64,000 nt of DNA, taken from Bacillus sp. 103mf. Lineage in GTDB: Bacteria > Bacillota > Bacilli > Bacillales > Bacillaceae_G. The DNA is taken from the NCBI RefSeq assembly GCF_900116295.1, contig NZ_FPAF01000012.1:47869-111868 (forward strand), written 5' to 3'. Position numbers and translations under genes: made by a program. Below the pieces are notes generated by a model. It ran no database searches, was not told the origin of the DNA, and was given only the letters and a program-made list of their open reading frames with translations. Every line of letters begins with the position of its first letter. Position 1 is the stretch's first letter. Shown piece by piece: positions 1,317 through 60,727 of this stretch.

Positions 1317-1361
1317 AAAAAAGAGCAACTGTTCCTGTATTGGAAAGTTGCTCTTTTTTTT
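1317..1361. terminator. Bidirectional Rho-independent terminator
   Basis: AAGAGCAACT (1321-1330) pairs with AGTTGCTCTT (1346-1355), with an A run on the left and a T run on the right. It can end minus-strand transcripts of the glycosyltransferase gene and plus-strand transcripts from the left. Confidence 0.8.
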
Positions 1362-1431
1362 ATCCCGCATTAACGGGCTTTCCATCAGTAGGAAATCATG
1401 AAAACACCAACTGATGGTTAATTTCATTTTA
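1362..1431 (-). repeat. Stop-codon-associated hairpin element (family 2), short copy
   Basis: Read on the minus strand, it begins at the TAA of the glycosyltransferase gene (TAAAATGAAATTAA). A CCATCAGT/ACTGATGG stem follows, and it ends in TTAATGCGGGATAAA. The long middle part seen in full copies is missing. Confidence 0.65.
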
Positions 1432-2250
1432 TTTAAAGTATCCTCTAACAATCCCTTTTAAGCGATTTGTATGGAATTTTCGTTTATCATTAGAGATGTT
1501 TTGCATTGCACGGAATAAAGCAGCGGCAATGGCACGTAAAAAGTAAGGAAATCCATAATGTAAGCGAATGACTCTTCCGAAACCGCCGGCATAGGAAATA
1601 GCTCTTTTTAGTGATTGCTCATTAATAATCTCTTCTTTTACTGGATGATATACGAAAAGATCTTTCTTAAATAAACCTGTATAGCCATTCTTCATACCGC
1701 GAAGTACAAAATCGGTTTCTTCACCGGCTCCGTAAATTGTCCCTGCTCCAACTCCTAAGTTTTCATCAAATGTGCCTACATCTTGTACGAACTGCTTCGT
1801 AAAGAAAAGGGCAAAGGAAGGGCCCATGAATCCGTATTTGTTATTTAAAATAATATCTGTTTTAGGAGCATGTATTAAAGAGCCTGTCCCTTCTACATTT
1901 GTTGTATTGGTAGAAATAAAATGAATATTGTTATTTCGTTTAAACGTCTCCTGAATATTTTCTAACACGTTCGTTTCGTAAATACAGTCGTCATCTGGAA
2001 AAGCGATAACATCACCATCAGCTACTTTTAAACCTGTGTTTCGTGCACGGGAGAGTCCTTTGATTGGCGTGTATATATAATTGATTGGGAATTTTTCTTT
2101 ATAGTCAGTAAATAAATCAGCGATTGGTGTATCGTTTTGGTCGACTACAATGAGTTCAAAGCCTTTATATGTTTGTTTTTCTAATGATTTTAGTAAATCT
2201 ATAATATCATCACGTCTGCCGCAAGTCGCCATGATTAAAGAGAATTTCAA
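1429..2250 (-). CDS. Family 2 glycosyltransferase
   Basis: 273 residues beginning MKFSLIMATCGRRDD, with the GT-A N-terminal strand and the nucleotide-sugar segment ELIVVDQNDTP. The metal-binding acidic motif FPDDDC is near residue 90. No membrane segment precedes the catalytic domain, so it is probably cytoplasmic or peripheral. The start is TTG at 2250, 9 nt after AAAGGAG. It lies 66 nt downstream of the flippase gene on the same strand, which suggests one operon for building and exporting a surface glycan. The sugar added cannot be deduced. The stop codon merges with a family 2 hairpin element. Confidence 0.85.
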   Translation of the reverse strand: MKFSLIMATCGRRDDIIDLLKSLEKQTYKGFELIVVDQNDTPIADLFTDYKEKFPINYIYTPIKGLSRARNTGLKVADGDVIAFPDDDCIYETNVLENIQETFKRNNNIHFISTNTTNVEGTGSLIHAPKTDIILNNKYGFMGPSFALFFTKQFVQDVGTFDENLGVGAGTIYGAGEETDFVLRGMKNGYTGLFKKDLFVYHPVKEEIINEQSLKRAISYAGGFGRVIRLHYGFPYFLRAIAAALFRAMQNISNDKRKFHTNRLKGIVRGYFK

Positions 2251-3771: not shown

Positions 3772-3859
3772 AATTTCACCTTTCATCGATAGTTCTTGAA
3801 ATAAAATGCTTTTGTGTTTTCTATTGAAAGGAATTCAATATTAGAAGTCTAATTTGCGT

Positions 3860-4027
3860 TTTTAATCCTATAACTTTGACCGTCATGATCTGCACTCGCT
3901 GTCTATCTTTGCTTTAAGCCTTGCATGTGGCAAGAAAAGACCCTGACCGCTTCTATGTGCGGCCAGATGCTCTCTTCCCTCCTAAAAAGAAAAGGGTTTT
4001 TGTATCAGTTTTGTAACTTGTATATAT
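3860..4027 (+). repeat. bcr1-like repeat, copy B (degenerate 5' end)
   Basis: The core GCATGTGGCAAGAAAAGACC, the segment CTGACCGCTTCTATG and the terminal hairpin around CCTAAAAAGAAAAGG match the other copies. The first ~40 bases have drifted. The rest of the gap 3772-4236 is AT-rich with no gene. Confidence 0.7.
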
Positions 4028-4236
4028 AGCATAAGATTTTTTTATTGAGTGATATTCATGGAATGTTCCTCTGGCTAATAAGTTATATAAGTCAATTAAT
4101 TTTAAGTAATTACGGATATAAGTTTACCGCAGATAAACTTTGTAAAGCAACAGTGGATTCTTTTCTTAATTGCATTAAAAATGGCATACAATGTATGAAA
4201 ATAGCAGATAAGAAAGCTTAGTATTTCTTCATAATA

Positions 4237-17066: not shown

Positions 17067-17178
17067 TGTGAAAGCCCCCTCGGGTGATAGAATGAAAACT
17101 ACATTTTTAATTATTATATCAATGTTATGAGGAAGTACAAAGCGAAAAAAGAAAGTAGTTAAATATGTTTTAATTAAC

Positions 17179-17229
17179 AAAACAAGCAGTACCAACGCTT
17201 TTATAGCGGTAGTACTGCTTGTTTATTTT
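17179..17229 (-). terminator. Long hairpin, terminator between the ClC gene and pdxK
   Basis: AAACAAGCAGTAC pairs with GTACTGCTTGTTT, with an inner CGCT/AGCG pairing. T residues follow on either side. It probably ends minus-strand transcripts of the ClC gene. Confidence 0.65.
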
Positions 17230-17313
17230 CTTACTGCCCGTAAAAGCCCGATTGGGCGGGCTTTCCATCAGTGGGAGATGAAAAAACTCTCCACTGATGG
17301 AAGTTTCACTTTA
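17230..17313 (-). repeat. Stop-codon-associated hairpin element (family 2), short copy
   Basis: On the minus strand it starts at the ClC stop as TAAAGTGAAACTTCCATCAG. It forms a CCATCAGTGG-type stem and ends in GCCCGCCCAATCGGGCTTTT and CTGCCCG-type segments. Confidence 0.72.
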
Positions 17314-18558
17314 TTTTTGTTCCATCTCCTCTTGTTTATTCTCATTATGATTAGGAAGTGGAAAAAGATTACCAATCATTGCAGCTCCAATCATTGGTAA
17401 CAATAAATTAATTGGGAAGAACATAAGTAATAATAATGTAATAGCGATTGGTTTTCGTACTGCATAGCTTGAAATGGCTGTTGTCACAATAGCTACAGAA
17501 GCAACTGGGTCTAACGGTATGACAGTAGCCACAGCATATCCAATACTTGCACCAGCAAATATAATCGGAAAAATATGTCCACCACGCCAACCTGTACTTA
17601 AACAGACTGCCGTTACACATAATTTTAAAACTCCTGAAAGAAGCAGCATCCAAAATGATAATGCTGTCCATTCATGGACTAAGTCTTTTAATTGATGTTC
17701 TCCTGAAAACATTGTATAGGGTAGTAAAGTTCCAGCAATCCCTAAAAGAATGCCACCTATAATTCCCAATATGACTTTATATTCTTGAAAAGGATGAACG
17801 ATTTTTTCAAATATATATTCTATCTTGAAATAAAAATAGCCTACGCCAGCTCCTATACAAATCAGAGGTAAAAAGGCAATCCATTCCTGAAGTGAAAAAG
17901 ACCCTTTCCCAAAATCAACAATAAAAGATCCTCGATTATCAAACTTACTAAGTAATAAATAAACAGAAAAACCAGCAAAAGTAGTAGCGAGATATACAAT
18001 AGTTTTTTTTCCTTTGGAAATTTCGTCAATTGGTTTATTCTCATTTTCACTCGGAGCTAAATAACCGAATAATGGCGCATTAAAAATAACACTTAAAGTA
18101 GCACCAATTCCAATTTCAGTTAATCCCTTCATTCCTTTTAAAGCGAAATGAAAACGATCTCCAACCCAAGTACAAAGTCCACCGATAATTCCAACAAGTG
18201 CTGCTTCCGGTCCTAAGCTTGCACCAAATATTAAAACAATAATAGCTGTTAACGTAGATTTATGTACAAAATTATACTCAATTCTACCTGTTTTTTTATA
18301 TTCGCCCATTACTTCTGGCATTAAACGCGGGTATGTACCGAAGTATTTCTGTGACAGTCCGACAAGAACACCGCCAATCATTGTTATACAAATTGTATAA
18401 TAAGGTGGTAATGAAAATTCTTTGGGTAAATATCCCCAAATAAAGTGAATTCCAGCATTTGTGGTAACTAAAAATAACCAGACTGTAGCACCAACTATAG
18501 AACCTAGAAACATACCGTACATGATAAGTAAAGAATGCATGCCTCTTCTAATAGTCAT
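17311..18558 (-). CDS. ClC-type chloride channel/transporter
   Basis: 415 residues, about 10-12 membrane segments. The helix-F region FGASLGPEAALVGIIGG (112-128) carries the gating glutamate Glu118, and a GWRGGHIFPIIFAG segment lies in the second half. ClC proteins conduct chloride or exchange it for protons; Glu118 is the external gate in both. AGGAGGCAT precedes the ATG. The protein ends soon after the last helix with a short K/E-rich tail and no CBS domains. It stands alone on the minus strand. Physiological role is unknown. Confidence 0.85.
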   Translation of the reverse strand: MTIRRGMHSLLIMYGMFLGSIVGATVWLFLVTTNAGIHFIWGYLPKEFSLPPYYTICITMIGGVLVGLSQKYFGTYPRLMPEVMGEYKKTGRIEYNFVHKSTLTAIIVLIFGASLGPEAALVGIIGGLCTWVGDRFHFALKGMKGLTEIGIGATLSVIFNAPLFGYLAPSENENKPIDEISKGKKTIVYLATTFAGFSVYLLLSKFDNRGSFIVDFGKGSFSLQEWIAFLPLICIGAGVGYFYFKIEYIFEKIVHPFQEYKVILGIIGGILLGIAGTLLPYTMFSGEHQLKDLVHEWTALSFWMLLLSGVLKLCVTAVCLSTGWRGGHIFPIIFAGASIGYAVATVIPLDPVASVAIVTTAISSYAVRKPIAITLLLLMFFPINLLLPMIGAAMIGNLFPLPNHNENKQEEMEQK

Positions 18559-19004
18559 TTTTATGCCTCCTTTATGTTACATTCTTGTTATGAAAAATTT
18601 AGAGATTCTGATACGAGAATAATTATGCTTATATATGTTATGACAGCTCTTTTTTACATTTTTGTAAAAAGACTTACTGAAGAGTAATTTATATAAAAGA
18701 TAGAGAATTACTTATAGTGTTTAATATTAAAGGATTTATATGAATTTTATTTGAAATTCAAATGAAAAATGTGCAGGAGTGCAGCAACATAGTTATTAAG
18801 TTAGGTTTTTAATCCCCATAAAGAAAAAATATCACTTTATAATAAGTGATGTGGCAACATTTGTATAAGTAGCGTTGTGAAAAATAGCATTTTCAAGGTT
18901 ACCTTAATGAATTAAATATAACTCTTTCATTTTACATAGTAAGTAAGGTTTTTTAAATGTATTTTTGGTCTTTAAATAGAACATTTCCTGTATTTTTTCA
19001 AATT
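18559..19004. other. AT-rich intergenic stretch without a recognisable gene
   Basis: It contains a TTTTTACA/TGTAAAAA hairpin near 18652-18672 and a perfect ATCACTT-N6-AAGTGAT inverted repeat at 18831-18850, neither followed by a T run. No coding frame with a ribosome-binding site was seen. The ClC promoter should lie at its left end. Confidence 0.4.
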
Positions 19005-19290
19005 TATCCCGCTATTTGTGGGCAGTAAGACCTCCACCTCAAGATTCAGAGAGAAAGTATTGTCCAGTTCCAGTGGCTAGAATATTCGGTGGCTTCGCTT
19101 CTTCCTACGAGGTAAAATACACCTCTACGTCAGAAGCTCCATCCCCCTCACATTCTGGACGAGCCACTTCTACTTTTCTAAAGAAGATAGGCGGGGAAGT
19201 CAAAGGCCTGATTGGGCGGTTTTTTTAATCAGTAAGGAATGAAAAATCCCCCACTTCAAGAGGCATTGGCCGATAAGTGGGGGTAGTTCA
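19005..19290 (-). repeat. Composite repeat: family 2 element interrupted by a family 3 element
   Basis: Outer sequences are family 2 (TTATCCCGCTATTTGTGGGC at the left, a CCCCCACTT/AAGTGGGGG hairpin at 19248-19283 and GTAGTTCAA at the right). Roughly 19045-19190 is a family 3 repeat in inverse orientation (CAGTGGCTAGAATATTCGG, GTGGCTTCGCTTC, CATCCCCCTCACATTCTGG). The family 2 hairpin can also terminate the maoC-like gene. Confidence 0.7.
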
Positions 19291-19835: not shown

Positions 19836-19853
19836 CATCGGTAATTGCATAAG

Positions 19854-20024
19854 TCTTATCAAGAATAGGTGGAGGGAACGGGCCCTATGAAACCTTGGCA
19901 ACAGCCGTAAATCGGAATTGTGCCAAATCCTGCAGGTATTTCCTGAAAGATAAGAAAGGCTACATGGCGAGCGTTTATCTAAGCTGCTTCTTTCTTATTT
20001 AGGAAAGAAGCAGTTTTTTATTTT
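19854..20024 (+). promoter_or_regulatory. SAM-I (S-box) riboswitch with terminator
   Basis: The P1 stem is TCTTATC (19854-19860) with GATAAGA (19949-19955). The conserved core GGTGGAGGGAACGGGCCC, TGAAACCTTGGCAACA and the GTGCCAAATCC block are all present. An intrinsic terminator AGCTGCTTCTTTC/GAAAGAAGCAG plus T run spans 19981-20024. High S-adenosylmethionine should favour termination before metY. Confidence 0.96.
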
Positions 20025-32562: not shown

Positions 32563-32758
32563 CATATAAGCAAGTTAAAAAACGACATAACCCCCCTTCT
32601 TTTTAGGGAGACGAGAGCATTTAGCCACGCATAGAAATGGTCATGGCCTTTTCCTGCCACATGCTAGGTTTAAAAAACAAAAGGAGGAATCGAGTACAGG
32701 TCATGTTATATTCTGCGTAGCAGCGATTTATATGTCGAAAAATTAAAATGGATATATA
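32563..32758 (-). repeat. bcr1-like repeat, copy F
   Basis: An inverse copy from ATATAAGCAAGTTAAAAAAC to AAAATGGATATATATG, with the core TTTTCCTGCCACATGCTAGG and CGAGAGCATTTAGCC. A 3-4 base insert in the A run distinguishes it from copy E. Confidence 0.77.
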
Positions 32759-32839
32759 TGTTTCTATTATCGTAACAATTCTTAAAATAGACTGCAACGC
32801 TTGAAGTTTGCCAATTTTGTTTACGTTTTGTGTCGATTA

Positions 32840-33013
32840 GTTAAACTTCCATAAATAGGAAAAAATTACTACTTATGAAAGTTTCGCCTTATCCCGCCCA
32901 AACAGTCGGTAAGAGGTTAAGCAAAGGAGCGAGAAGCAAACCGTCTGTAAGGACCCGATTGGTTCAACTAATCCTCAACGAGAAATCCGTTCGTTGAGGA
33001 AATTTTCACTTTA
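32840..33013 (-). repeat. Stop-codon-associated hairpin element (family 2), long copy
   Basis: On the minus strand it starts at the ywdJ stop (TAAAGTGAAAATT). Hairpin TCCTCAACGAACGG...TCGTTGAGGA follows, then the box TTAGTTGAACCAATCGGGTC, an AACCTCTTACCGACTG segment pairing back to CAGACGGTTTGC, and GGGCGGGATAA. A further AAACTTCCATAAATAG hairpin lies at 32842-32885. Confidence 0.75.
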
Positions 33014-34297
33014 CCCTGCTTGTCTGTCTGGTGAACGAGAGAATAATATTTCTAGTATAATCGCCATTACAGAGCCAAGTACAAGGCCGTTGCTTAAGAA
33101 GGATGCAAGGAATGGCGGCAGTGAAGAAAAGGCTCCTGATGGGATGAACATGACGCCAATTCCGGTAAAGAGAGCGAGGCCCGCAACTTTGAATAAGCGT
33201 TCTTTATCTTTCACAGTTTCATATTCTCGAAAAGCTAACCCAATCATACTTGCAAATACCGGATAAATAGCTGCATAGCCAACTGCTACTGGAATTGCTG
33301 CAATGAATGAAGTAACCTTTGGAAATAGGCTCATAAGAATAATAAAGGACGAACCAAGAATAAACGGTAATCGTTTGTAAATGCTCGTTGTCGCAATAAA
33401 GCCGGCTGATCCAGAAATAGCAACAGGCCCAATTGCTGAAAATAGACCGCCAAGGAGCTGATTAATACCAGTTATCATTCCAGCTTGTTTAAATCGATTT
33501 TGCGGTGCAACGTCTTCGTATTTCGAAACTACTTGTTGAACAACGCGAATACTTGCTAACATATTAGTTAGTAGTAATAACGTAACGAAGAAAATAGTAA
33601 TAACCATATTCCATTCTAAGCGAGGTGTGCCAAATACAAAGATAGATGGTATGCGGATAATATCTGTTACAGGTGTAATTGGGTTTGATAGACCGAAACA
33701 TGCAAATAAAACCCACCCAACTACAATACTGCATAGTACAGAATATTGACCGATAATAGGTAGTTTCATGATAAAGAAAGATAAAACAATAATGATAAGA
33801 GAAAGAATAAAGACTTTCCCTTGAACAGCTGTATGCTGTTCGTTAAGCCCAAACATGCCTTTTAAAAATGATCCACTTAGCTGTGCGACGAGTAAAAATA
33901 AGTAGGTTCCAATAACAGTGGGTGTAAAATAGCGGACAAGTTTATCAATAAGTCCAAATGTACTAAGAAGAATGCAAATAATACCACTTAATAAGAAGGA
34001 ATATTGCAGTACACGAAGCGTTTCACTGTTTGAACCAAATAATACAACGCCTAAGCTTGCATACAAGGAAAAGATGCCCCACCAAAGTCCTGCAGGTCCT
34101 TCTTGAATTGGCAAGCGGTGACCAAAGAAAGCTTGTAAAATACCTGCAAATCCAAGAACAAATAATGTTCGTTGGACGAATGCGATTGCTTCTGCGCCTT
34201 CCAGTCCGTAGTTAGCGGCGACACTAATTGGAACGATTAGGCTGCCGGCCAAAATAAATAATGCCCATTGCAGGGCAGAAAGAAATGTTTTCATCAT
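33011..34297 (-). CDS. ywdJ: NCS2-family purine/uracil permease (YwdJ-like)
   Basis: 428 residues, 12-14 membrane segments. The NCS2 features include a Q-rich helix near the centre and SGSAGFIATTSIYKRLPF with the preceding AIGPVA, replacing the more usual QNxGxxxxT motif. NCS2 carriers import xanthine, uracil or guanine with protons. AGAGGTTGAT precedes two adjacent ATG codons; the first is used here. Neighbours ywdI and ywdK are as in B. subtilis, which supports the orthology. The substrate is unproven. A family 2 repeat begins at the stop codon. Confidence 0.8.
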   Translation of the reverse strand: MMKTFLSALQWALFILAGSLIVPISVAANYGLEGAEAIAFVQRTLFVLGFAGILQAFFGHRLPIQEGPAGLWWGIFSLYASLGVVLFGSNSETLRVLQYSFLLSGIICILLSTFGLIDKLVRYFTPTVIGTYLFLLVAQLSGSFLKGMFGLNEQHTAVQGKVFILSLIIIVLSFFIMKLPIIGQYSVLCSIVVGWVLFACFGLSNPITPVTDIIRIPSIFVFGTPRLEWNMVITIFFVTLLLLTNMLASIRVVQQVVSKYEDVAPQNRFKQAGMITGINQLLGGLFSAIGPVAISGSAGFIATTSIYKRLPFILGSSFIILMSLFPKVTSFIAAIPVAVGYAAIYPVFASMIGLAFREYETVKDKERLFKVAGLALFTGIGVMFIPSGAFSSLPPFLASFLSNGLVLGSVMAIILEILFSRSPDRQAG

Positions 34298-34487
34298 ATA
34301 TCAACCTCTTTCTTGTATTCCATTTCTAGTATATATGTATTTGATTTGTTGTGGCAAAAATTGAACATAGAGAAAAGAAATGAAAGAATATCATGAGTGC
34401 ACGTAAACAATTAATTATTGCAATTATATGTATGTATTTTATGGTGATTATTGGATAAAACAGGTTTGTGATTATAGAAGAGAGATG

Positions 34488-34520
34488 AAAAAACTCTCCA
34501 CTGATGGAAGTTTCACTTTA
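34488..34520 (-). repeat. Family 2 element fragment
   Basis: AACTCTCCACTGATGGAAGT and TTCACTTTA are nearly identical to the element end at 17287-17313 behind the ClC gene, but here no gene stop is attached. Confidence 0.6.
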
Positions 34521-34624
34521 TTTCAGGCAATGCGGAAAAACTAGCAGAACGTGATATGATAATAGTATTTGGTCCAGTAGAGAAGTTGGAGCAATTTGAG
34601 AAAGAATTACAATACATGAGGTGA
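34505..34624 (+). pseudogene. 3' remnant of a lost gene, possibly with a TrkA-C-like end
   Basis: An open frame without a start codon ends GNAEKLAERDMIIVFGPVEK and then LEQFEKELQYMR, with its stop at 34622-34624, 6 nt before ywdI. The pattern of a hydrophobic strand, then FGPVEKL, then an amphipathic helix resembles the end of RCK/TrkA-C domains. The frame starts inside the family 2 fragment, as if the repeat and a deletion removed the rest. The coding nature is inferred from composition and the clean join to ywdI. Confidence 0.45.
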
Positions 34625-34630
34625 GAAAAT

Positions 34631-34912
34631 ATGCAAATATCTAGCGATAAGATTTTAAATAAAATGGCAAGTGAAATTGCAAAAGCGAAAGGGAGTGAAT
34701 CACATAAAGCAAAAGAACATCTTTTAGTTGTTCGTGCATTATGTGATCTATTACTTGAAGAACAGACAGAAGCTTCTGTATATGTTGAACCAAAATTACA
34801 AGCACATGTTATAGCGCCGCAAATGCCTGTCCAACCAATTGCTTCATTTTCAGGAGAGCCTGTATATGTGAAAGAAGATGATGCAAACGGAAACTCTCTC
34901 TTGGATTTTTAG
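34631..34912 (+). CDS. ywdI: YwdI family protein (DUF5327)
   Basis: 93 residues. The N-terminal half is helical and charged (ISSDKILNKMASEIAKAKGS), with KAKEHLLVVRALCDLLLEEQ as the conserved core. The C-terminal half is P/V-rich and probably disordered, ending NSLLDF. Its B. subtilis homologue sits in the same place before ywdK; no function is known. GAGGTGAG precedes the ATG and overlaps the end of the upstream remnant. Confidence 0.8.
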   Translation: MQISSDKILNKMASEIAKAKGSESHKAKEHLLVVRALCDLLLEEQTEASVYVEPKLQAHVIAPQMPVQPIASFSGEPVYVKEDDANGNSLLDF

Positions 34913-34974
34913 ATGCTAAATAGTTGGATTGTGTGTGGAAATTTTTTATTATAAAAGTAAAAAGGGGAATTCTA

Positions 34975-35343
34975 ATGAAAATTTTCTTCTTATTGGGTTG
35001 TATTACGGCAGCATTATCTGTTGTACTTGGTGCATTTGGAGCACATGGACTTGAAGGGAAAATCTCAGCAAAAATGTTAGATGTATGGAAAACAGGTGTT
35101 ACATATCAAATGTTTCATGCAGGTGGATTATTTATTGTTGCTTTATTAATGGATAAGATTCAATCTTCTCTTGTAAGCGCAGCAGGCTGGTGTATGGTAG
35201 CAGGTATTATTATGTTTTCCGGAAGCTTATATGCATTAAGTACAACTGGTATAAAATTTTTTGGACCAATTACTCCGCTTGGCGGCGTAGCGTTTATTGT
35301 AGGCTGGATTTTACTGGGAACTGCGATTGTAAAAGGTTTATAA
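34975..35343 (+). CDS. ywdK: DUF423 membrane protein YwdK
   Basis: 122 residues from ATG 34975, 5-6 nt after AAAGGGGA. It has four membrane segments. The family signature LSVVLGAFGAHGLEGKIS near residue 15 and TGVTYQMFHAGGLF near 41 identify DUF423, a widespread small inner-membrane family of unknown role. The gene follows ywdI by 62 nt, as in B. subtilis. Its stop TAA is directly the start of a family 2 element. Confidence 0.85.
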   Translation: MKIFFLLGCITAALSVVLGAFGAHGLEGKISAKMLDVWKTGVTYQMFHAGGLFIVALLMDKIQSSLVSAAGWCMVAGIIMFSGSLYALSTTGIKFFGPITPLGGVAFIVGWILLGTAIVKGL

Positions 35344-35470
35344 AGTGAAACTTCTTCTTGGGAAACGTTTTTCTTCCCAAGAGGTTAGTTGAACCAATCG
35401 GGCCCTTACAGATGGTTTGTACTTTACTTCCTTGTCTAACCTCTTACCAGCTGTTTGGGCTGGATAAAAA
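35341..35470 (+). repeat. Stop-codon-associated hairpin element (family 2), long copy
   Basis: TAAAGTGAAACTTC starts at the ywdK stop. The hairpin TCTTGGGAA/TTCCCAAGA follows, then the box TTAGTTGAACCAATCGGGCC. ACAGATGGTT is set against AACCTCTTACCAGCTG, and the end is GGGCTGGATAAAA. The first stem has a sequence unlike the other copies yet is fully paired. Confidence 0.78.
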
Positions 35471-35476
35471 TAAAAC

Positions 35477-35503
35477 AAAAGCTGGCATTTGCCAGCTTTT
35501 TCT
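35477..35503 (-). terminator. Terminator of cwlJ-gerQ
   Basis: AAAAGCTGGC (35477-35486) pairs with GCCAGCTTTT (35491-35500) around ATTT. Confidence 0.85.
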
Positions 35504-35505
35504 TA

Positions 35506-35922
35506 TCATCTTGGAGGGTAAGTTGCTGGTTGTTGTGTTGGGAAGTAGATGATCTCTCCTGGAAATTCTACATAATCAAGATAAATCATAAGCAGTAAAT
35601 AACGCTTTCCAGACTTAGGATCACTTATAATGACGTGATCGCGTCCTGCAGCCTCAATGATGCCTGTATAGGATTGTGTACCAAGTGTGCTGCCGCGCTC
35701 ATATGTCATAAATAGAGTTGCTGGTTTTCCTTTGTTTAAACGAAGGATATTTTCAATATATGATTGCTCAAGTGGAAGCATCCCTTGAGAAGCAGCAAGT
35801 TGTGCTTGCGTAGCTTGCTGCGTCGGCATTTGCTGCCCTTGTTGTCCCGGCTGCGGTTGCATATATCCGCCAGATGGCTGGTAAAATCCTCCTCCATAGT
35901 ATGGGTTTTGTTGCTGTGCCAT
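35506..35922 (-). CDS. gerQ: Spore coat protein GerQ
   Basis: 138 residues. A Q/G/Y/P-rich N-terminal half (1-45) precedes the conserved domain with YIENILRLNKGKPATLFMTY and IIEAAGRDHVIISDP. GerQ is a coat protein needed for germination; it holds CwlJ in the coat and is cross-linked by transglutaminase. In B. subtilis the cross-linked lysines are recalled to be at positions 2, 4 and 5; here the first lysine is only near residue 64, while glutamines abound. AGGAGGGATTTC precedes the ATG. It lies 26 nt after cwlJ in one sporulation operon. Confidence 0.9.
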   Translation of the reverse strand: MAQQQNPYYGGGFYQPSGGYMQPQPGQQGQQMPTQQATQAQLAASQGMLPLEQSYIENILRLNKGKPATLFMTYERGSTLGTQSYTGIIEAAGRDHVIISDPKSGKRYLLLMIYLDYVEFPGEIIYFPTQQPATYPPR

Positions 35923-42651: not shown

Positions 42652-43710
42652 ATGGAAGTGAGTATGAGAAAGGTTTACGAAAAAGAATCGGTAGACATAA
42701 AAGAGATAAAAAGTCGTCCGCTTATTGCCTTGATAATTTTAATCGTTGGAACTGCTTTATTAGCTTTAAGTATGGCAGCTTCTATTTCATTTGGTGCTGC
42801 TGATATTAGTTTGAAAACAGTATGGCAAGCTGTATTTCAGTTTGATGCATCTACGACATATCATAGTGTAATTCAAGAATTGCGTCTTCCAAGGGCAATT
42901 GGGGGAGCAGCTGTAGGGGCATTTCTAGCAGTATCTGGCGCAATTATGCAAGGGATGACGCGAAATCCACTTGCATCTCCATCACTTATGGGAATTACAG
43001 ATGGAGCGGTATTTGGCATTGCAATCATGTTTGCATTCTTCCCCAACTCGCCATATTTCATGTTTGTAATTGCTTCTTTTATCGGGGCAGCATTTGGTGC
43101 AAGTATTGTATACGGAATTGGTGCAGCATCTCCGGGCGGACTAACACCAATTAAATTAGCATTATCTGGAGCAGCAATTAGTGCCTTACTAGGCGCAATT
43201 TCATCTGGGATTGCCTTATATTTTAATCTAGCGCAAGAGGTTAGTATGTGGCACGCAGGAGGCGTTGCTGGCGTAAAATGGACGAGTTTAAACATGTTAC
43301 TTCCAGTTGGTCTTGTTTGTCTTATTATCGCGATTATGCTAGCGAGGTATATTACGATTTTAAGTTTTGGTGAAGGAATTGCCATTGGTCTTGGACAAAA
43401 TACAAAGCTCATTAAGTTTATTGGAACCATTCTTGTACTTGTATTAACAGGTAGTGCCGTTTCTATAGCTGGATCTGTTGGATTTGTTGGTCTTGTTATT
43501 CCACATTTAACACGTTTTCTTGTGGGATCAGATTATCGCTGGATAATCCCATGTTCTGCCGTTCTAGGCGGGTTACTTATTGAGTGTGCTGATATGATCT
43601 CACGTATTATGAATCCGCCGTTTGAAACGCCAATTGGAGCTGTAACAGCGATGGTCGGCGTACCATTCTTCCTCTACTTAGCACGTAAAGAAGGGAGAGG
43701 GAAAATGTGA
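42652..43710 (+). CDS. FecCD-type ferric-siderophore permease, first subunit
   Basis: 352 residues, 9-10 membrane segments. The BtuC/FecCD signature LRLPRAIGGAAVGAFLAVSG, GAIMQGMTRNPLASPSLMGI and the coupling region GVAFGLGQ-like EGIAIGLGQNTK are present, ending in IPHLTRFLVGSDYRWIIP. It forms the import channel with the next gene product. ATG 42652 has a modest AGGATG upstream; ATG 42664 is an alternative. It is preceded by two Fur boxes. The next gene overlaps it by 4 nt. Confidence 0.9.
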   Translation: MEVSMRKVYEKESVDIKEIKSRPLIALIILIVGTALLALSMAASISFGAADISLKTVWQAVFQFDASTTYHSVIQELRLPRAIGGAAVGAFLAVSGAIMQGMTRNPLASPSLMGITDGAVFGIAIMFAFFPNSPYFMFVIASFIGAAFGASIVYGIGAASPGGLTPIKLALSGAAISALLGAISSGIALYFNLAQEVSMWHAGGVAGVKWTSLNMLLPVGLVCLIIAIMLARYITILSFGEGIAIGLGQNTKLIKFIGTILVLVLTGSAVSIAGSVGFVGLVIPHLTRFLVGSDYRWIIPCSAVLGGLLIECADMISRIMNPPFETPIGAVTAMVGVPFFLYLARKEGRGKM

Positions 43711-44717
43711 GGAAAGGAATGTTAACGAGAAAAAACGTATCAATTCTATCTAGTATTGGTATGTTAATTTGCATCGTATTTTTAATTAGCTTATATACAG
43801 GTACGTTCAAAATTTCACCAGTTGAAGTGTTGAAAACGCTCGTTGGATTTGGGTCAGAAGAGCAAACAACAATTTTATTTGATTTTCGGATGCCGCGAAT
43901 GATTGTTGCTCTTTTAGTAGGGTCAGCTTTAGCAGTATCCGGTGCAATTATGCAAGGATTATCACGAAATCCACTTGCCGATCCAGGAATTATTGGTATT
44001 AACGCTGGATCGGGATTATCAGTTGTAATCTTTGTTTATTTCTTCTTTGGAAAAGTAACGATGACTTCGTTTTTATCTGTATTCATTTTGCCGTTTTTTG
44101 CTTTAGTTGGTGCAATATTAGCGGCGGTTATTATTTATGCACTTGCTTGGAAAGATGGTGTTTCGCCGGTTCGTTTAGTTCTGGTTGGGATTGCAGTGGC
44201 AGCTGGGTTCAGTGCTGTGAGCTTAGTATTCTCGATGAAAATGACAGCGAATGACTTCCGTTTTGCTACGATTTGGTTATCGGGAAGCTTATGGGTGACA
44301 GATTGGAAATTCGTATTAAGTGCGCTGCCATGGATGCTTATTTTCTTACCAATTGCTTTTATGAAAGCGCATGTTTTGAATGTAATGAATTTAGGAGATG
44401 CGGCGGCAACGGGTCTCGGTCTGAACGTGGAGAAAGAACGCCGTAAGCTATTATTTATCGCTGTTTGCTTAGCTGGTGCGTCTGTTGCAGTTGCAGGGGG
44501 AATCAGTTTTATTGGATTAATGGCACCGCATCTTGCCCGCCGCTTAGTAGGCGGAAAATATCAAATTATGATACCAACCGCTGCGTTACTCGGAACATTA
44601 TTGCTATTGTTTTCTGATCTTCTTTCGCGCAGCTTACTTACAACATCAGAAATACCGGTCGGTCTTGTCATTTCAGTAATTGGCGCGCCGTATTTCATTT
44701 ATTTACTTATAAAGTGA
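43707..44717 (+). CDS. FecCD-type ferric-siderophore permease, second subunit
   Basis: 336 residues, 9-10 membrane segments. The signatures FRMPRMIVALLVGSALAVSG, AIMQGLSRNPLADPGIIGIN and GLMAPHLARRLVGG are clear. GTG 43707 overlaps the previous stop; ATG 43719 with GAGGAAAGG upstream is an alternative. It pairs with the first permease. The stop TGA lies inside the AAAGTGAAACTT box of a family 2 repeat, which separates it by 171 nt from the ATPase gene. Confidence 0.9.
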   Translation: MRKGMLTRKNVSILSSIGMLICIVFLISLYTGTFKISPVEVLKTLVGFGSEEQTTILFDFRMPRMIVALLVGSALAVSGAIMQGLSRNPLADPGIIGINAGSGLSVVIFVYFFFGKVTMTSFLSVFILPFFALVGAILAAVIIYALAWKDGVSPVRLVLVGIAVAAGFSAVSLVFSMKMTANDFRFATIWLSGSLWVTDWKFVLSALPWMLIFLPIAFMKAHVLNVMNLGDAAATGLGLNVEKERRKLLFIAVCLAGASVAVAGGISFIGLMAPHLARRLVGGKYQIMIPTAALLGTLLLLFSDLLSRSLLTTSEIPVGLVISVIGAPYFIYLLIK

Positions 44718-44867
44718 AACTTTAATCAGCGGGGGGGCTTCATCCCCCACTGATTATTAGTTGAACCAATCGGGCTTTTACGGGCAGTTTATCTCCCACC
44801 TAACTCCCTTGCTTTTGCCGAATTTTGAGGTGGGAGTATTACTGCCCGCGAATAGCGGGATAAAAAC
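44713..44867 (+). repeat. Stop-codon-associated hairpin element (family 2), longest copy
   Basis: AAAGTGAAACTT at the permease stop, hairpin AATCAGCGGGGG/CCCCCACTGATT, box TTAGTTGAACCAATCGGGC, then a nested stem in which CGGGCAGTTTATCTCCCACC pairs with GGTGGGAG and TACTGCCCG. It ends with AGCGGGATAAAA. It lies inside the importer gene string. Confidence 0.82.
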
Positions 44868-50500: not shown

Positions 50501-50527
50501 ATTAAGGTTTCACTTTATACATTTTCA

Positions 50528-52585
50528 TCACCAAGGAAAATACTTTTTCCACCAGCTTGGTTTATTTTTTTCTTTCTCTTTTAGCACTGCCTCAAATTCA
50601 TCTTTTTCATCAATATGATCCATACAGTACTCCGTTGGCTCAGTCCCTTTTACAAAATACATTTTGACAGAAACAGGGCACCCTTTCGTGGCGATTTTCC
50701 CGTTTTCAGGGTTAATGTTTAATGCGACTACATTGGCTGGTTTTTTAAAGTCTTGTTTTGGAGTTTCTTCTAACCCTTGCTCCATAATCGCTGCCCACAT
50801 ATTTTTTGCATAGACTTGCTCAGCTGGGTTAGAGATTGTTTTTTGTTTATCATAGCCGACCCAAACGCCTGTTACGAGATCTGGTGTAAAGCCAATCATC
50901 CAGCTATCTGTCTCGGTTGAACCGGATTTTCCAGCGTATGTGCGGGATAACTTTGGAATAAGGGTTTGTCCAGTGACGGAGGCGTAGCTATTTAGCTTTT
51001 TATTAAACATGCCCGTCATCATTTCTTCCATTACAAAGGCATTGTTCTCATCAAGAATTTGTTTATTTTCTAAATGAGAATCATACAAAATGTTGCCGTC
51101 ATGATCGACAACACGCCGAATAAATGTTGGTTTCACTTGTTTGCCGCCGTTAGCAAGCATGCTATAAGCGTTTACCATTTCAAGAGGCTTTACAGGAGAT
51201 GTTCCGAGCGCAAGTGATGGGACATCTTTTAATGAACTTGTAATTCCAAATTGCTTCGCCGTTTTTACGAGTGATTCTTCTCCTAAGAAAAGATGTGTTT
51301 TTACAGCGTATACATTGTCGGAAACAGCAATTGCTTGCATCATTGTAATGAAATTATCGGCGTAGTAGTTTTTATAATTGGTCGGCTTATATTTTGAAAC
51401 ACCATCGCCTAATGTGAACACAGTATACTCACTTTTTAAGCGAGTTGCTGGTGTAAATCCTTGTTCAAGAGCGGCGTAATATAAAAAGGGTTTAAACGTG
51501 GAACCTGGTTGCCGGTATGCTTGTGTTGCCCGGTTGAATTGGCTTTTTTTATAATCACGTCCGCCGACAAGAGACATTACTTCGCCGGTTTGAGGATTTA
51601 TAGATACAATAGCTGTTTCTATCTCCGTTGTACTTGGAATTGTGTTGTTTACTGTACTTTCAGCAATTGTTTGAAGTTTCGGATCTAGTGTTGTGTATAC
51701 ACGCAGGCCGCCGCGTGCTACCGTTTGCTCATCAAGACCAGCAGCATTGATGAGGGAAGCTTGCACGGCATCTTGAAAGTAAGGCGCTATTTCTGCTACT
51801 TCTTCTTTTTCAAGTGAAGCAAAGCTGAGTTGTTCTTGTTTTGCCGCTGCAGCTTCTTTTTTGGTGATATATCCTTGTTCTACCATTTCATTTAAAATAA
51901 GAGCTTGTCTTTCTTGAGCCCGGCTTTTATGCAAATAGGGAGAATACAAACTTGGTCCTTTTGGAATACCTGCAAGCATACTGGCTTCTGCTAAATTTAA
52001 ATCTTTCGCATTTTTATTAAAATAGAGACGTGCCGCTGCCTCGATTCCGTAGGCACCGTGCCCGTAGTAAATTGTGTTTAAATATCCTTGTAAAATATCA
52101 TTTTTATTGTAATTCACTTCTAGGCGAATGGTGTACATTGCTTCTAACAGCTTTCGTTTCCATGTTTTATCGTGATCCAAATATAAATTACGTGCGTATT
52201 GCTGCGTAATTGTACTTGCGCCCTGTACTTTTCCCATCGCTTTAATGTCGGCAATCACTGCCCCGCCTATGCGCTTTAAATCAAAGCCATGATGTTTATA
52301 AAAGCGCTGATCTTCAATAGAAAGTGTTGCCTCCCTTACGTAAGGTGAAATATGATCGAGTGATACGTTATAACGTTCCTGCGCCCCGTGACTTTGCCCC
52401 ATAACTGAGTCGTCATTTGCATAAAAGATAGTTGTTTGTGGAACCGCAACAGGTGGTGGTCCTAAAATTTTCGCAACGAGTAACAAAATAAAAATAGTGA
52501 AAACAAAGAAAAGGACACCTGATAGTAGTGCAGTAAGGAAAAAGCGCATATATTTCGCATGTTTTTCATTTGCCGTAAGTTCCAT
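50528..52585 (-). CDS. pbpG: Class A penicillin-binding protein (PbpG type)
   Basis: 685 residues from ATG 52585, 8 nt after GGGGTGA. A cytoplasmic tail and membrane anchor (about 13-40) precede the GT51 glycosyltransferase domain with catalytic Glu91 in SIEDQRFYKHHG and GASTITQQYARN. The transpeptidase domain has STFK (Ser362), a SDN motif and KSG in place of KTG. Synteny with B. subtilis (between ywhD and speE) points to pbpG, which helps make germ-cell wall peptidoglycan in the forespore. Confidence 0.87.
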   Translation of the reverse strand: MELTANEKHAKYMRFFLTALLSGVLFFVFTIFILLLVAKILGPPPVAVPQTTIFYANDDSVMGQSHGAQERYNVSLDHISPYVREATLSIEDQRFYKHHGFDLKRIGGAVIADIKAMGKVQGASTITQQYARNLYLDHDKTWKRKLLEAMYTIRLEVNYNKNDILQGYLNTIYYGHGAYGIEAAARLYFNKNAKDLNLAEASMLAGIPKGPSLYSPYLHKSRAQERQALILNEMVEQGYITKKEAAAAKQEQLSFASLEKEEVAEIAPYFQDAVQASLINAAGLDEQTVARGGLRVYTTLDPKLQTIAESTVNNTIPSTTEIETAIVSINPQTGEVMSLVGGRDYKKSQFNRATQAYRQPGSTFKPFLYYAALEQGFTPATRLKSEYTVFTLGDGVSKYKPTNYKNYYADNFITMMQAIAVSDNVYAVKTHLFLGEESLVKTAKQFGITSSLKDVPSLALGTSPVKPLEMVNAYSMLANGGKQVKPTFIRRVVDHDGNILYDSHLENKQILDENNAFVMEEMMTGMFNKKLNSYASVTGQTLIPKLSRTYAGKSGSTETDSWMIGFTPDLVTGVWVGYDKQKTISNPAEQVYAKNMWAAIMEQGLEETPKQDFKKPANVVALNINPENGKIATKGCPVSVKMYFVKGTEPTEYCMDHIDEKDEFEAVLKEKEKNKPSWWKKYFPW

Positions 52586-52653
52586 TTCTTTTGTCACCCC
52601 TCATAGCATACTTTTACTAGTATTGAGGTTTTTGGTTGTTTTTAAACTATAGA

Positions 52654-52902
52654 AAGTGAAACTTCTATTAGTGGGGAGGTTCTTCATCCTCCACCTATCT
52701 TCTTTAGAAAAGCTGAAGCGGCTCGTTCAGAATCGCAGGATAAATTCATTTTAATTTTTTAAAATATAAGCCGCTGCTATGCAAAGCAACATGTCCGCTA
52801 CTTTCTTTATTTATTTTAACCTTGTAAGTGGCAGGAAAAGGTCCTGATTGGTCCTATGCCTGGCCGGATGCTCTTGCGTCGTTTTTTCATTATGTATTTA
52901 TA
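52654..52902 (+). repeat. Composite repeat tract: family 2, family 3 fragment, bcr1-like copy I
   Basis: AAAGTGAAACTTCTATTAGT and a GTGGGGAGG/CCTCCAC hairpin (52654-52695, family 2) are followed by AGAAAAGCTGAAGCGGCTCG (family 3 start, about 52696-52735). Then comes a bcr1-like copy (52739-52902) that lacks the CCTAAAAAGAAAGG hairpin. TTTAT is at 52897-52901. It fills the gap between pbpG and the phosphodiesterase gene. Confidence 0.7.
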
Positions 52903-58520: not shown

Positions 58521-58958
58521 GTGGAGAAGCAACTTGCAGGCTTACCAGTACAAGTTCAATTTGTAACGGAAGTTCGTGAGGGAGTTCGAAAGGAAACTAT
58601 TGCTTTTGATGCAAATGGTCTATACTATGTAAAAGGTCAAAGTACATATGTAACGTTTCAAGAGCCGAACGAACAAGGCGAAGTGAAGACAATTATTAAA
58701 ATCCAAGATGATCAAGTTCTTATTATGCGTTCGGGTGCTGTTTCGATGCGCCAAACTCATAAAAAAGGTGAGTGGACAACAGGAACGTATACGAGTGAAC
58801 TTGGAACGTTTGCGTTGCAAACGAAAACGGATAACGTCCTTTTTAAATGGTCGGAAGAAAAGAAAAAGGGACAACTCTTTCTAACGTATGCATTGCTTCT
58901 AAGTGAACAAGAAGCAGGCCGATATACAATTACCATTAATCTTAAGGAGGCAAAATAA
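58521..58958 (+). CDS. ywiB: YwiB family beta-barrel protein (DUF1934)
   Basis: 145 residues from GTG 58521, 8 nt after AAAGGTG; upstream in-frame TTG/GTG codons overlap that site. It is an all-beta lipocalin-like domain ([39 protein letters not shown]). Its stop overlaps the argS ATG (TAATG), as in B. subtilis, where ywiB precedes argS. Function is unknown. Confidence 0.85.
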
Positions 58959-60628
58959 TGAACTCTTTAGAACAAGTAAAAGAACTCATTAAAGAGGAAG
59001 TTAAAGCTGCTGTAGTAAAAGCAGAATTAGCGACAGAAGAACAAATTACAAACGTTGTATTAGAAACACCAAAAGATAAAACACACGGTGATTTCTCGAC
59101 AAACATGGCGATGCAACTGGCACGTGTAGCCAAAAAAGCACCTCGTATGATTGCAGAAGAATTAATTGCAAACTTTGATAAAGCAAAAGCTTCTATTGAA
59201 AAGATCGAAATTGCTGGCCCTGGTTTTATTAACTTTTACATGGATAACAGCTATTTAACAGATTTAATTCCAACAATTATCACAGCTGGTGAAGCTTATG
59301 GTGAAACAAACGCAGGTAAAGGTGAAAAAGTACAAGTTGAGTTCGTATCTGCAAACCCAACAGGTGACCTTCACTTAGGACATGCACGCGGCGCAGCAGT
59401 TGGTGATACGTTATGTAACGTATTAGCAAAAGCAGGTTACGATGTATCTCGTGAGTATTACATTAACGATGCGGGTAACCAAATTCATAACTTAGCGCTT
59501 TCTGTTGAAGCACGTTACATGCAAGCGTTAGGTTTAGAAAAAGAAATGCCAGAAGATGGTTACCATGGTGCTGATATTATTGGTATTGGTAAGCGACTTG
59601 CAGAAGAATTCGGCGATCATTACGTGCATGCAGATGCAGAAGAAAGCTATGAATTCTATCGTCAGTACGGTTTAAAATATGAATTAGAAAAGCTTCAAAA
59701 GGACTTAGCAAGCTTCCGCGTTAACTTTGACGTTTGGTATTCTGAAACATCATTATACAAAAACGGTAAAATCGATGAAGCTCTTGCAGTATTAAAAGAG
59801 CGCGGGGAAGTGTTTGAAGAAGAGGGCGCAACATGGTTCCGCTCTACAACTTACGGCGACGATAAAGACCGTGTATTAATTAAAAATGATGGTTCTTACA
59901 CATACTTAACGCCAGATATTGCGTATCACCGTGATAAATTAGGGCGTGGTTTTGATAAATTAATTAACATTTGGGGTGCTGACCACCACGGTTACATTCC
60001 TCGTATGAAAGCAGCAATTCAAGCGCTTGGATATGATAAAGATACATTAGAAGTAGAAATCATCCAAATGGTACAATTATATCAAAATGGTGAAAAAGTA
60101 AAAATGAGTAAACGTACAGGTAAAGCTGTTACACTTCGTGAGCTTATGGAAGAGGTAGGCGTGGACGCAATGCGTTACTTCTTTGCAATGCGCAGCGGTG
60201 ACTCTCATTTAGACTTTGATATGGACTTAGCGGTATCAAAATCAAATGAAAACCCTGTATATTATGCACAATACGCACATGCACGCGTATGCAGTATTCT
60301 TCGTCAAGGTGAAGAACTCGGCTTAGCTGCAGGCGGCGATGTGAATTATAAGCTTGTTGCTTCTGAGAAAGAAGTAGACTTATTAAAGAAACTAGGCGAA
60401 TTCCCAGCAGCAGTTGCAGAAGCAGCACAAAAACGTCTGCCGCACCGCATTACAAGCTATGCATTTGATTTAGCAGCAGCACTTCATAGCTTCTATAATG
60501 CAGAGAAAGTATTAAACCAAGATAATTTAGAATTAAGTAAAGCTCGTTACGATTTAATGCGTGCAGTACGTATTACACTTCAAAATGCATTAGCATTAGT
60601 TGGAGTATCTGCACCAGAGAAGATGTAA
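58958..60628 (+). CDS. argS: Arginyl-tRNA synthetase
   Basis: 556 residues. The N-terminal Add1 domain (1-115) is followed by the class I catalytic core with the HIGH variant HLGHARG near 135, preceded by SANPTGD. KMSKRTG near 378 is the KMSKS loop. A helical anticodon-binding domain (about 430-556) ends [13 protein letters not shown]. It charges tRNA-Arg. AGGAGG precedes the ATG. It overlaps ywiB by one nt. A family 2 element begins a few bases after its stop. Confidence 0.96.
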
Positions 60629-60631
60629 TGA

Positions 60632-60727
60632 ATAAAGTGAAACTTCCATCAGTGGAGAGCTTTTTTATCTCCCACTGATGGTTATCCCGCCCAATCGAGG
60701 TCTTACTGCTCGTTAATGCGGGATAAA
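60632..60727 (+). repeat. Stop-codon-associated hairpin element (family 2), short copy
   Basis: AATAAAGTGAAACTTCCATC, stem CCATCAGTGG/CCCACTGATGG, then ATCCCGCCCAATCGAGGTC and CTGCTCGTTAATGCGGGATA. It starts 4 nt after the argS stop. Confidence 0.77.

Follow-up and report, generated by a model that had tools for sequence, protein, structure and literature searches.

Bcr repeats have been described as specific to the B. cereus group and as mostly chromosomal (PMC8725734, 2021). Among them, bcr1, which together with bcr2 and bcr3 makes up the group A repeats, appears in three papers as a folded, MITE-like repeat of 147 or 167 bp that is associated with TTTAT, is present in many copies and is mostly located on the chromosome (PMC2267715, PMC3446304, PMC6542083). 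Insertion sequences of the IS200/IS605 family are the second system of interest; they are described as having no terminal inverted repeats and no target site duplications, as inserting 3' of a tetra- or pentanucleotide and as preferring the lagging-strand template (PMC7290912, PMC6006769).

The window, by which we mean the whole stretch of 64,000 nucleotides of Bacillus sp. 103mf that was analysed, holds several copies of an element that resembles bcr1 in its length of about 150 bp, its MITE-like character, the TTTAT motif, its abundance, its fold and its mostly chromosomal location. The motif stands at each end of the unit, and the window copy that starts at 44709 has both. In Okstad's work of 2004, TTTAT is reportedly found to flank each end of bcr1. 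Judged by described features and not by sequence, the element is very likely bcr1, or else bcr2 or bcr3. So far, bcr1 has been treated as a repeat of the B. cereus group with an unknown mover. The copies are almost certainly those of a mobile element, and this is probably a non-coding, non-autonomous element of about 150 bp that represents one branch of a Bacillales-wide family of the ends-only IS200/IS605 type.

Copies of the element in the window

The unit of about 150 bp consists of ATAAA, the first box GTGAAACTT, a hairpin, the second box TTAGTTGAACCAATCGGG, a second stem, GCGGG and again ATAAA. A covariance model of the element (R1), derived from an alignment of 62 relatives, recovered all seven copies that the first-pass annotation had listed in the window, with E-values of at most 2.1e-4 (Table 1). 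The copies starting at 44709, 35340 and 32888 were included in this alignment and match by construction, and those starting at 60632, 17169, 1359 and 19003 are independent of the training set. The best R1 match beyond these seven had an E-value of 0.054. Four of the seven copies lie on the minus strand and three on the plus strand, and the long copies measure 127-156 bp.

The counts of both boxes in the window exceed the shuffled expectation. The first box occurs five times exactly and 16 times with up to two mismatches (mean of shuffled sequences 6.2, largest value 14), while the 18-base second box was found three times, always exactly, with 0.09 occurrences expected at up to three mismatches. 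The three fragments that had been listed earlier each have a first box with no more than one mismatch. A search of the window against Rfam returned a SAM riboswitch only and no match for the element, the best score in the 44709 region being 25.1 bits as compared to a gathering score of 115. The SAM riboswitch lies at 19853-19956 on the plus strand (86.9 bits).

Table 1. Copies and fragments of the element in the window, and features associated with them
Feature	Position	Strand	Remarks
Given copy: ATAAA, first box, hairpin 1, second box, second stem, TGGATAAA	35340..35468	+	R1 match
TAA of the 35340 copy	35341..35343	+	Stop codon of ORF 34924-35343
Second box TTAGTTGAACCAATCGGG of the given copy	35385..35402	+	
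Long copy, best preserved	44709..44864	+	R1 match, 147 bits
ORF ending in the 44709 copy	43707..44717		Stop codon TGA within the first box
Second domain of the 44709 copy, TTTAT strand	44783..44846	-	IS200/IS605 left-end model R3, 22.4 bits, E 0.0056
Long copy, ends GTAAA and ATAAG	32888..33014	-	R1 match
ORF ending in the 32888 copy	33011..34297	-	Stop codon within the first box
Decayed second hairpin unit	32840..32891	-	Adjoins copy 32888-33014; TAAGGCGAAACTT at 32879-32891
Short copy, second box replaced	60632..60727	+	3 nt past the stop codon of ORF 58958-60628
Copy without the start of the second box	17169..17314	-	First box holds the stop codon of ORF 17311-18558 (-)
Degenerate short copy	1359..1432	-	R1 E 1.2e-4; overlaps the stop codon of ORF 1429-2250 (-)
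Degenerate copy, mainly the 3' half	19003..19103	-	R1 E 2.1e-4
Fragment: exact first box and part of hairpin 1	34508..34520	-	
Fragment: first box with one mismatch	50505..50517	-	10 nt past the stop codon of ORF 50528-52597 (-)
Fragment: first box with one mismatch and hairpin remnant	52652..52664	+	

Conservation of the fold

It had been proposed from the window alone that the structure of the element is kept while the sequence of the stem is free. The stems on which this proposal was based are all present, with a single C.A mismatch in the stem of the 44709 copy, and the proposal is upheld for two of three stems when relatives are considered. Out of 76 non-redundant elements 62 were aligned, and the RNAalifold consensus of these has three helices: 11 pairs form hairpin 1, six form the outer stem of the second domain and five form a short helix, GTGAAAC/GTTGAAC. 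Changes on both sides were found at 17 of the 22 pairs, which are all pairs of hairpin 1 and the outer stem. The five pairs of the GTGAAAC/GTTGAAC helix hardly vary, and this helix therefore says little about covariation. Among the 62 relatives, 96.2% of the cells were paired as compared to 83.0% in shuffled alignments, and 142 cells had changed on both sides as compared to 29. The observed values were above those of all 500 shuffles, and shifting the partner by one to three columns destroyed the signal.

Insertion at ATAAA and local growth of arrays

Filled and empty sites were found in two genera. In three Lysinibacillus loci (L217, L218 and L219), a gene ending in ATAAA, which by our reading is ArsR-like, is followed by arrays of three, three and five units, the array of L217 adjoining a masked gap. 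The same gene ends in TATAAATAG in four other loci (L220-L223), where no element is present. In one Psychrobacillus locus (L390), CTTC-ATAAA and ATAAA-GGAG enclose two units in tandem; the empty site in L392 reads CTTC-ATAAA-GGAG, with exactly one ATAAA, and three more empty sites (L391, L393 and L394) have AAAAA, ACAAA and AAAAAA at this position. The net gain amounts to the unit plus five bases. The comparison of flanking loci without the element, which the first-pass annotation had suggested as a check, thus shows in both genera an insertion into one ATAAA.

ATAAA is present on both sides of 76 out of 105 elements, and at one or both sides of 103. Of the remaining 29 elements, 16 vary at the 3' side only, 11 at the 5' side only and two at both sides but differently, so the same variant was found on both sides in none of them. 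A target site duplication of variable sequence was rejected on these grounds, there being no mirrored variants in the 105 elements found by the ATAAA-tolerant search; very different targets or ends would be missed, because the patterns used to find the elements were tolerant only around ATAAA. In the 83 and 81 flanks compared, no conserved target sequence was detected beyond ATAAA.

The units of tandem arrays share ATAAA between them. They are 94.5% alike within arrays as compared to 80.7% between loci, which indicates that arrays grow locally and speaks against an origin by random insertion.

These observations bear on the possibility that the element is circularised and moved by a site-specific recombinase, ATAAA being the short crossover shared by both partners. 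Such a route would be in line with ATAAA at both ends and one ATAAA at the empty site, with the shared ATAAA in tandem arrays and with the existence of carriers that have no Y1 transposase gene. However, no conserved sequence extends the target in the flanks mentioned above, and the left end of the element is like that of IS200/IS605 elements (see below). We therefore regard movement by a recombinase as quite unlikely.

A classical MITE moved by a DDE transposase would likewise be small, non-coding and dispersed, with a short flanking direct repeat. However, the ends of the element, GTGAAAC and CCCGC (reverse), do not form inverted repeats, and the five flanking bases are oriented and near-constant. 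A classical MITE with terminal inverted repeats is ruled out by the difference between the ends.

Stop codons and gene context

The first-pass annotation had noted that stop codons lie within or directly beside the first box. In the window this link is strong. Six copies have a first box (at most two mismatches) and a hairpin. Four of them hold within the box the stop codon of an open frame that lies upstream and has 80 codons or more, and in the other two such a stop codon starts 6 or 12 nt ahead of the box. As for the other copies and fragments, the 1359 copy has a stop codon in its box, those at 52652 and 19003 have none, and the fragment at 34508 holds the stop codon of a 131-codon open frame that is possibly no gene. 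Outside the window the link is weaker. There, the stop codon lies inside the box in 28 of 145 copies and shortly before it in three of 145, and the difference between the window (4/6) and these copies (28/145) has a p-value of 0.019. One genome (the G790 regions) stands out with eight of 17 copies. When composite loci were dropped, 92 copies remained, and in 10 of these the TAA of the terminal ATAAA served as the stop codon of an ORF with 80 or more codons, as compared to 77 of 1803 background sites (p-value of 0.008). Stop codon overlap outside the window is an excess, yet it concerns a minority of copies, and the counts of 10/92 and 28/145 rule out beyond the window that all copies sit at stop codons. 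In the lineage of the window, there may be selection for copies at gene ends.

Since the target ATAAA contains TAA, an insertion that lands on a stop codon leaves the protein nearly intact. The presence of copies at stop codons can thus be attributed to the TAA in the target together with the loss of harmful insertions. The gene context of the copies was examined for 102 non-tandem copies from the window and 119 retrieved loci, of which 81 lie between two assigned genes, 17 at locus edges and four inside ORFs. The flanking genes fall into orientation classes of 29, 23, 17 and 12, which is not different from the 496, 515, 370 and 229 counted for intergenic ATAAA sites (chi-square p-value of 0.77).

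The suggestion of a mobile or selected 3'-UTR structure is borne out in its first part by the filled and empty sites, but the 3'-UTR structure is not supported as the main reading. A selected RNA element that acts as terminator, stabiliser or protein-binding RNA could account for the six out of six boxed hairpin copies in the window that have a stop codon inside or at most 12 nt from the first box, for the overlap above background outside the window and for the strong covariation of the stems, and a part of the bcr repeats (84/165 and 62/155) is transcribed according to an RNA-decay study in B. cereus (PMC3446304). However, the copies do not differ from intergenic ATAAA sites in their gene context, and the copies in the genomes G200, G790 and G006 run mostly against the prevailing gene direction. 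Moreover, in the same study transcript half-life is linked with bcr3 only, and no effect is reported there for bcr1 or bcr2 (PMC3446304). When the window was scanned from 32700 to 35700, no terminator-like site, with a G+C-rich hairpin and a T-run after it, was called on the own strand of the long copies at 35340 and 32888. A separate terminator-like site occupies 35500-35477 of the minus strand, and another match, at 32972-33000 on the plus strand, is on the strand opposite to the 32888 copy. A selected 3'-UTR element is very improbable on this evidence, and a 3'-UTR role need not be invoked. Apparent 3'-UTR regulatory hairpins in genomes of this kind may be insertions that a TAA-containing target puts on stop codons.

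Distribution of the family

The exact 18-base second box was found in at least 119 stretches, and the matches listed include records named Paenibacillus, Lysinibacillus, Sporosarcina, Siminovitchia, Cytobacillus, Peribacillus, Neobacillus and others. When one mismatch was tolerated, 82 out of 397 genomes from a single order contained it; among the matches listed, its backward control gave one match in each of two genomes. R1 matched 43 of 398 genomes of the class at E-values of at most 1e-8, in a set in which the window's own flank was matched only at 69-81%. The element thus differs from bcr1 as described in that the same boxes and structure occur across the Bacillales (82/397 and 43/398 genomes), a statement that applies to the wider family and not to the window copies. 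Among the matches listed in the open-access literature, to which the search was confined, no paper dealt with the family outside the B. cereus group, nor with a kinship of the family to IS200/IS605.

Copy numbers can be high. At one mismatch the first box was found 328 times in genome G001 and 257 times in G009, its backward control giving 8 to 13 matches in four genomes, and G021 has 46 second boxes. Siminovitchia thermophila (L013, L074, L083, L090, L092 and L112) has 257 first boxes, several short tandem arrays and no Y1 match.

The location of the element is mostly chromosomal, and six distinct records out of 72,556 plasmids carry it. Phages gave no match and no viral contig contained the second box; a looser pattern picked up four viral stretches, two of them with weak model matches (E-values of 0.002-0.003). 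A good copy is found in the record of the Klebsiella grimontii plasmid pNY3A (L277, CP079755.1, 215561-227653). The GC content of this stretch is 30-33%, so that the plasmid may in fact belong to a member of the Bacillales that was present in a mixed culture. In a Bacillus arachidis plasmid (L279), a decayed copy (3958-4121) follows about 180 bp after the end of a site-specific integrase gene (2606-3778).

Resemblance to the left ends of IS200/IS605 elements

A decayed tnpA-tnpB element in genome G022 (L148/L414) has TTTAT followed by the layout of the second half of our element. Taken alone, this left end scored 21 in local alignment, as compared to a background mean of 22 and a maximum of 32. 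The comparison with a single insertion sequence thus failed its background control, and a family model was used in its place. Starting from the other side gave little as well: with a covariance model of the element's second half (R2), the left ends of insertion sequences reached E-values of 0.33 and 1.3 only, and with a sequence profile of this half E-values of 1.3 and more; the left end of L148/L414 was recovered by neither of the two.

Upstream of 30 TnpB genes, a recurring order was found of TTTAT or TTTAA, an outer stem, letters similar to GAAGACTCCC, TCAA, GGNGGAGATGAAT and a closing stem. The family model (R3) was built solely from 11 left ends of TnpB/TnpA elements, with no bcr1-like copy included; the likeness that it measures may be somewhat inflated, because these ends were picked by eye and partly for likeness. 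In the window and 65 loci (579 kb), the best R3 match was another such end (L031, E-value of 2.4e-19), and matches to the repeats followed with E-values of 8.9e-7, 6.9e-6 and 1.8e-5 onward, including the window match in Table 1. A profile of the left ends that uses sequence only gave 94 matches on the 123 elements of the list, of which 91 fall on the TTTAT strand and three on the other. Its best element had an E-value of 0.0016 (window and 119 loci), and 66 more matches fell outside the element list, some of them being unlisted copies. Applied to 2 Mb from seven genomes, R3 gave 11 matches at E-values of at most 0.1. Five of these overlap R1 copies, all five on the TTTAT strand, one is the place of a building sequence itself (L365), two are weak others, and the remaining three are strong ends located at TTTAT, of which two precede TnpB-like frames by our reading.

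The second half of the element, read on the TTTAT strand, thus resembles IS200/IS605 left ends. The R3 matches and the 91 of 94 profile matches on this strand lead us to read the element as consisting only of IS200/IS605 ends that are moved in trans, and an IS200/IS605-type mechanism is quite likely. Well-preserved IS200/IS605-like left ends at TTTAT were also seen at L031:1937-2022 (+) and L302:8576-8663 (+) with no recognised transposase frame after them, and these are perhaps other ends-only elements.

In IS608, the guide bases pair with the target bases at positions -3, -4 and -1, by our reading of two papers (PMC5934647, PMC8266576). From this rule AAnA is predicted as the guide for TTTAT. 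Indeed, the bases that immediately precede the inner stem read AAnA in 39 of 57 elements (AAGA in 27 and AATA in seven), and the 44709 copy has AATA as guide. Of the left ends of insertion sequences, 11 of 13 fit their own target, as judged by eye with the foot of the hairpin placed by us; TTTAT goes with AAnA, TTTAA with AAGT or AATT, and TCTAT with AGTA, while the ends in L187 and L198 do not fit the guide rule. No clear guide was found at the right end of the element.

With IS200/IS605 elements and the related PATEs the element shares the absence of terminal inverted repeats, a fixed and oriented pentanucleotide, hairpins near both ends, the layout of the left end with its AAnA guide and, in some genomes, a possible bias to the lagging template. 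It differs from a PATE in its abundance, with up to 328 first boxes per genome as compared to the single PATE-like sequence reported in PMC7290912. It also differs from IS200/IS605 elements in its tandem arrays and composite forms and probably in its right end (GTGAAACTT and hairpin 1), for which no IS counterpart was found on the right side of the one insertion sequence read there (L414), where nothing like GTGAAACTT was seen with TTTAT.

The strand on which the resemblance lies also bears on a spread via RNA, by a reverse-transcriptase or intron-like retroelement that starts from a transcript of the GTGAAAC strand. Only on that strand can the near-invariant GTGAAAC and GTTGAAC pair, by our reading on either side of a tandem G.A, as would suit an RNA intermediate. 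The likeness to IS200/IS605 left ends, however, is on the opposite strand, and a spread via RNA appears extremely improbable.

Replication-strand bias and proposed mechanism

Leading and lagging strands were assigned in seven genomes from sampled GC skew. Of 141 loci, 95 have the TTTAT strand on the side of the lagging template (p-value of 4.5e-5), with shares of 13/14 in G200, 15/18 in G790, 32/46 in G006, 5/7 in G013, 10/17 in G022, 19/37 in G810 and 1/2 in G018, where 15 were ambiguous. The bias is strong in two to three of the seven genomes, weak in G022 and absent in G810. In G006, G200 and G790 the genes lean opposite to the bias of the element, and intergenic ATAAA and TTTAT sites are about equally frequent or lean against it. 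The local skew around 92 copies gave 50:42 (p-value of 0.47), and the window has a positive skew throughout, with three plus and four minus copies and no bias. A genuine IS605 family is reported to have no strand preference (10/22; PMC7290912). The strand bias thus supports a single-strand reading in some genomes only.

From the ends, the target and the strand of the left-end resemblance we infer the enzyme and a single-stranded step of transposition. The element inserts in a single orientation at ATAAA, which reads TTTAT on the opposite strand, and has ATAAA on both sides afterwards. Read on the TTTAT strand, its second half is arranged and spelled like an IS200/IS605 left end, with TTTAT, an outer stem, AAGA and an inner CTCCC...GGGAG stem. 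A HUH (Y1) transposase supplied in trans may fold the single TTTAT strand, exposed for example in the lagging-strand template, and would then join the strand 3' of TTTAT with AAGA as guide.

For bcr1, the evidence tilts slightly towards a TTTAT-specific IS200/IS605 TnpA as its mover. Under this proposal, bcr1 would be the local branch of a superfamily that extends across the Bacillales and consists of ends-only single-strand transposons; this superfamily keeps a folded left end with its guide, builds head-to-tail arrays and nested composites, and far outnumbers its coding relatives. With a family present in many genera, an IS200/IS605-like left end and clear empty sites, the mover becomes testable in hosts that are harmless.

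Candidate transposases in carrier genomes

Y1 (PF01797) is present in 24 of 29 carrier genomes and absent from five, including G009 and G021. The absence of TnpA from five of 29 carriers would be compatible with the proposed mechanism if the mover was lost later. When 60 Y1/RAYT loci with flanks of about 1.5 kb were searched with R1, one locus (L143) had a partial element (E-value of 7e-7) at a distance of 1.1 kb from a broken piece of Y1, and in another the IS left end of L148 was matched at an E-value of 0.007, while the other loci gave no match at E-values of up to 1. TnpB (PF07282) is absent from four of the ten genomes checked, and three of 24 TnpB loci had short element-like matches to R1. 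A resident mover was sought by scanning Y1, TnpB and RAYT-like loci for the element and by comparing the presence of Y1 and RAYT genes, and none of these candidates fits.

REP/BIME sequences are high-copy hairpins as well, and RAYT-like genes are common in the hosts of the element, with RAYT-like Y1 proteins in 229 of the 397 genomes of the order set. They are slightly commoner in genomes that have the second box (56/82) than in those that do not (173/315; p-value of 0.03), as might be expected if a RAYT-like, REP-associated protein and not an IS200/IS605 TnpA moved the element as single-stranded DNA. However, RAYT-like genes are absent from 26 of the 82 carriers, including the high-copy genomes G050, G021 and G015, and they are not flanked by copies, the 40 RAYT-like loci searched giving no R1 match at E-values of up to 1. 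The element also differs from REP/BIME in its length of about 150 bp, its two stems and its ends, which are defined at ATAAA, and its left end resembles IS200/IS605 and not REP. Movement by a RAYT-like protein is therefore unlikely.

Composite and shortened forms

A composite form, in which an element sits in reverse orientation within a second one, at TTAGT (or TTAGC) immediately past hairpin 1, was observed in L032, L042, L043, L053, L080, L101, L102, L104, L108 and L109, with the same arrangement in several genera. The nested end is mostly TGTAT, with TTTAT in L102 and TGTAG in L080. Covariation of the guide in this form was considered and set aside; the composite form is one ancestral arrangement and therefore counts as one event.

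Forms of 52-54 bp recur at L098:520 (-), L099:6102 (+), L156:1501 (+), L167:1501 (+) and L171:1501 (+). They keep both ends, with the GTGGGG of hairpin 1 joined to that of the inner stem, and look like the result of a deletion between short direct repeats. Lastly, some copies (L159, L168, L037, L038 and L089) contain a further structured module that is apparently a second repeat family.
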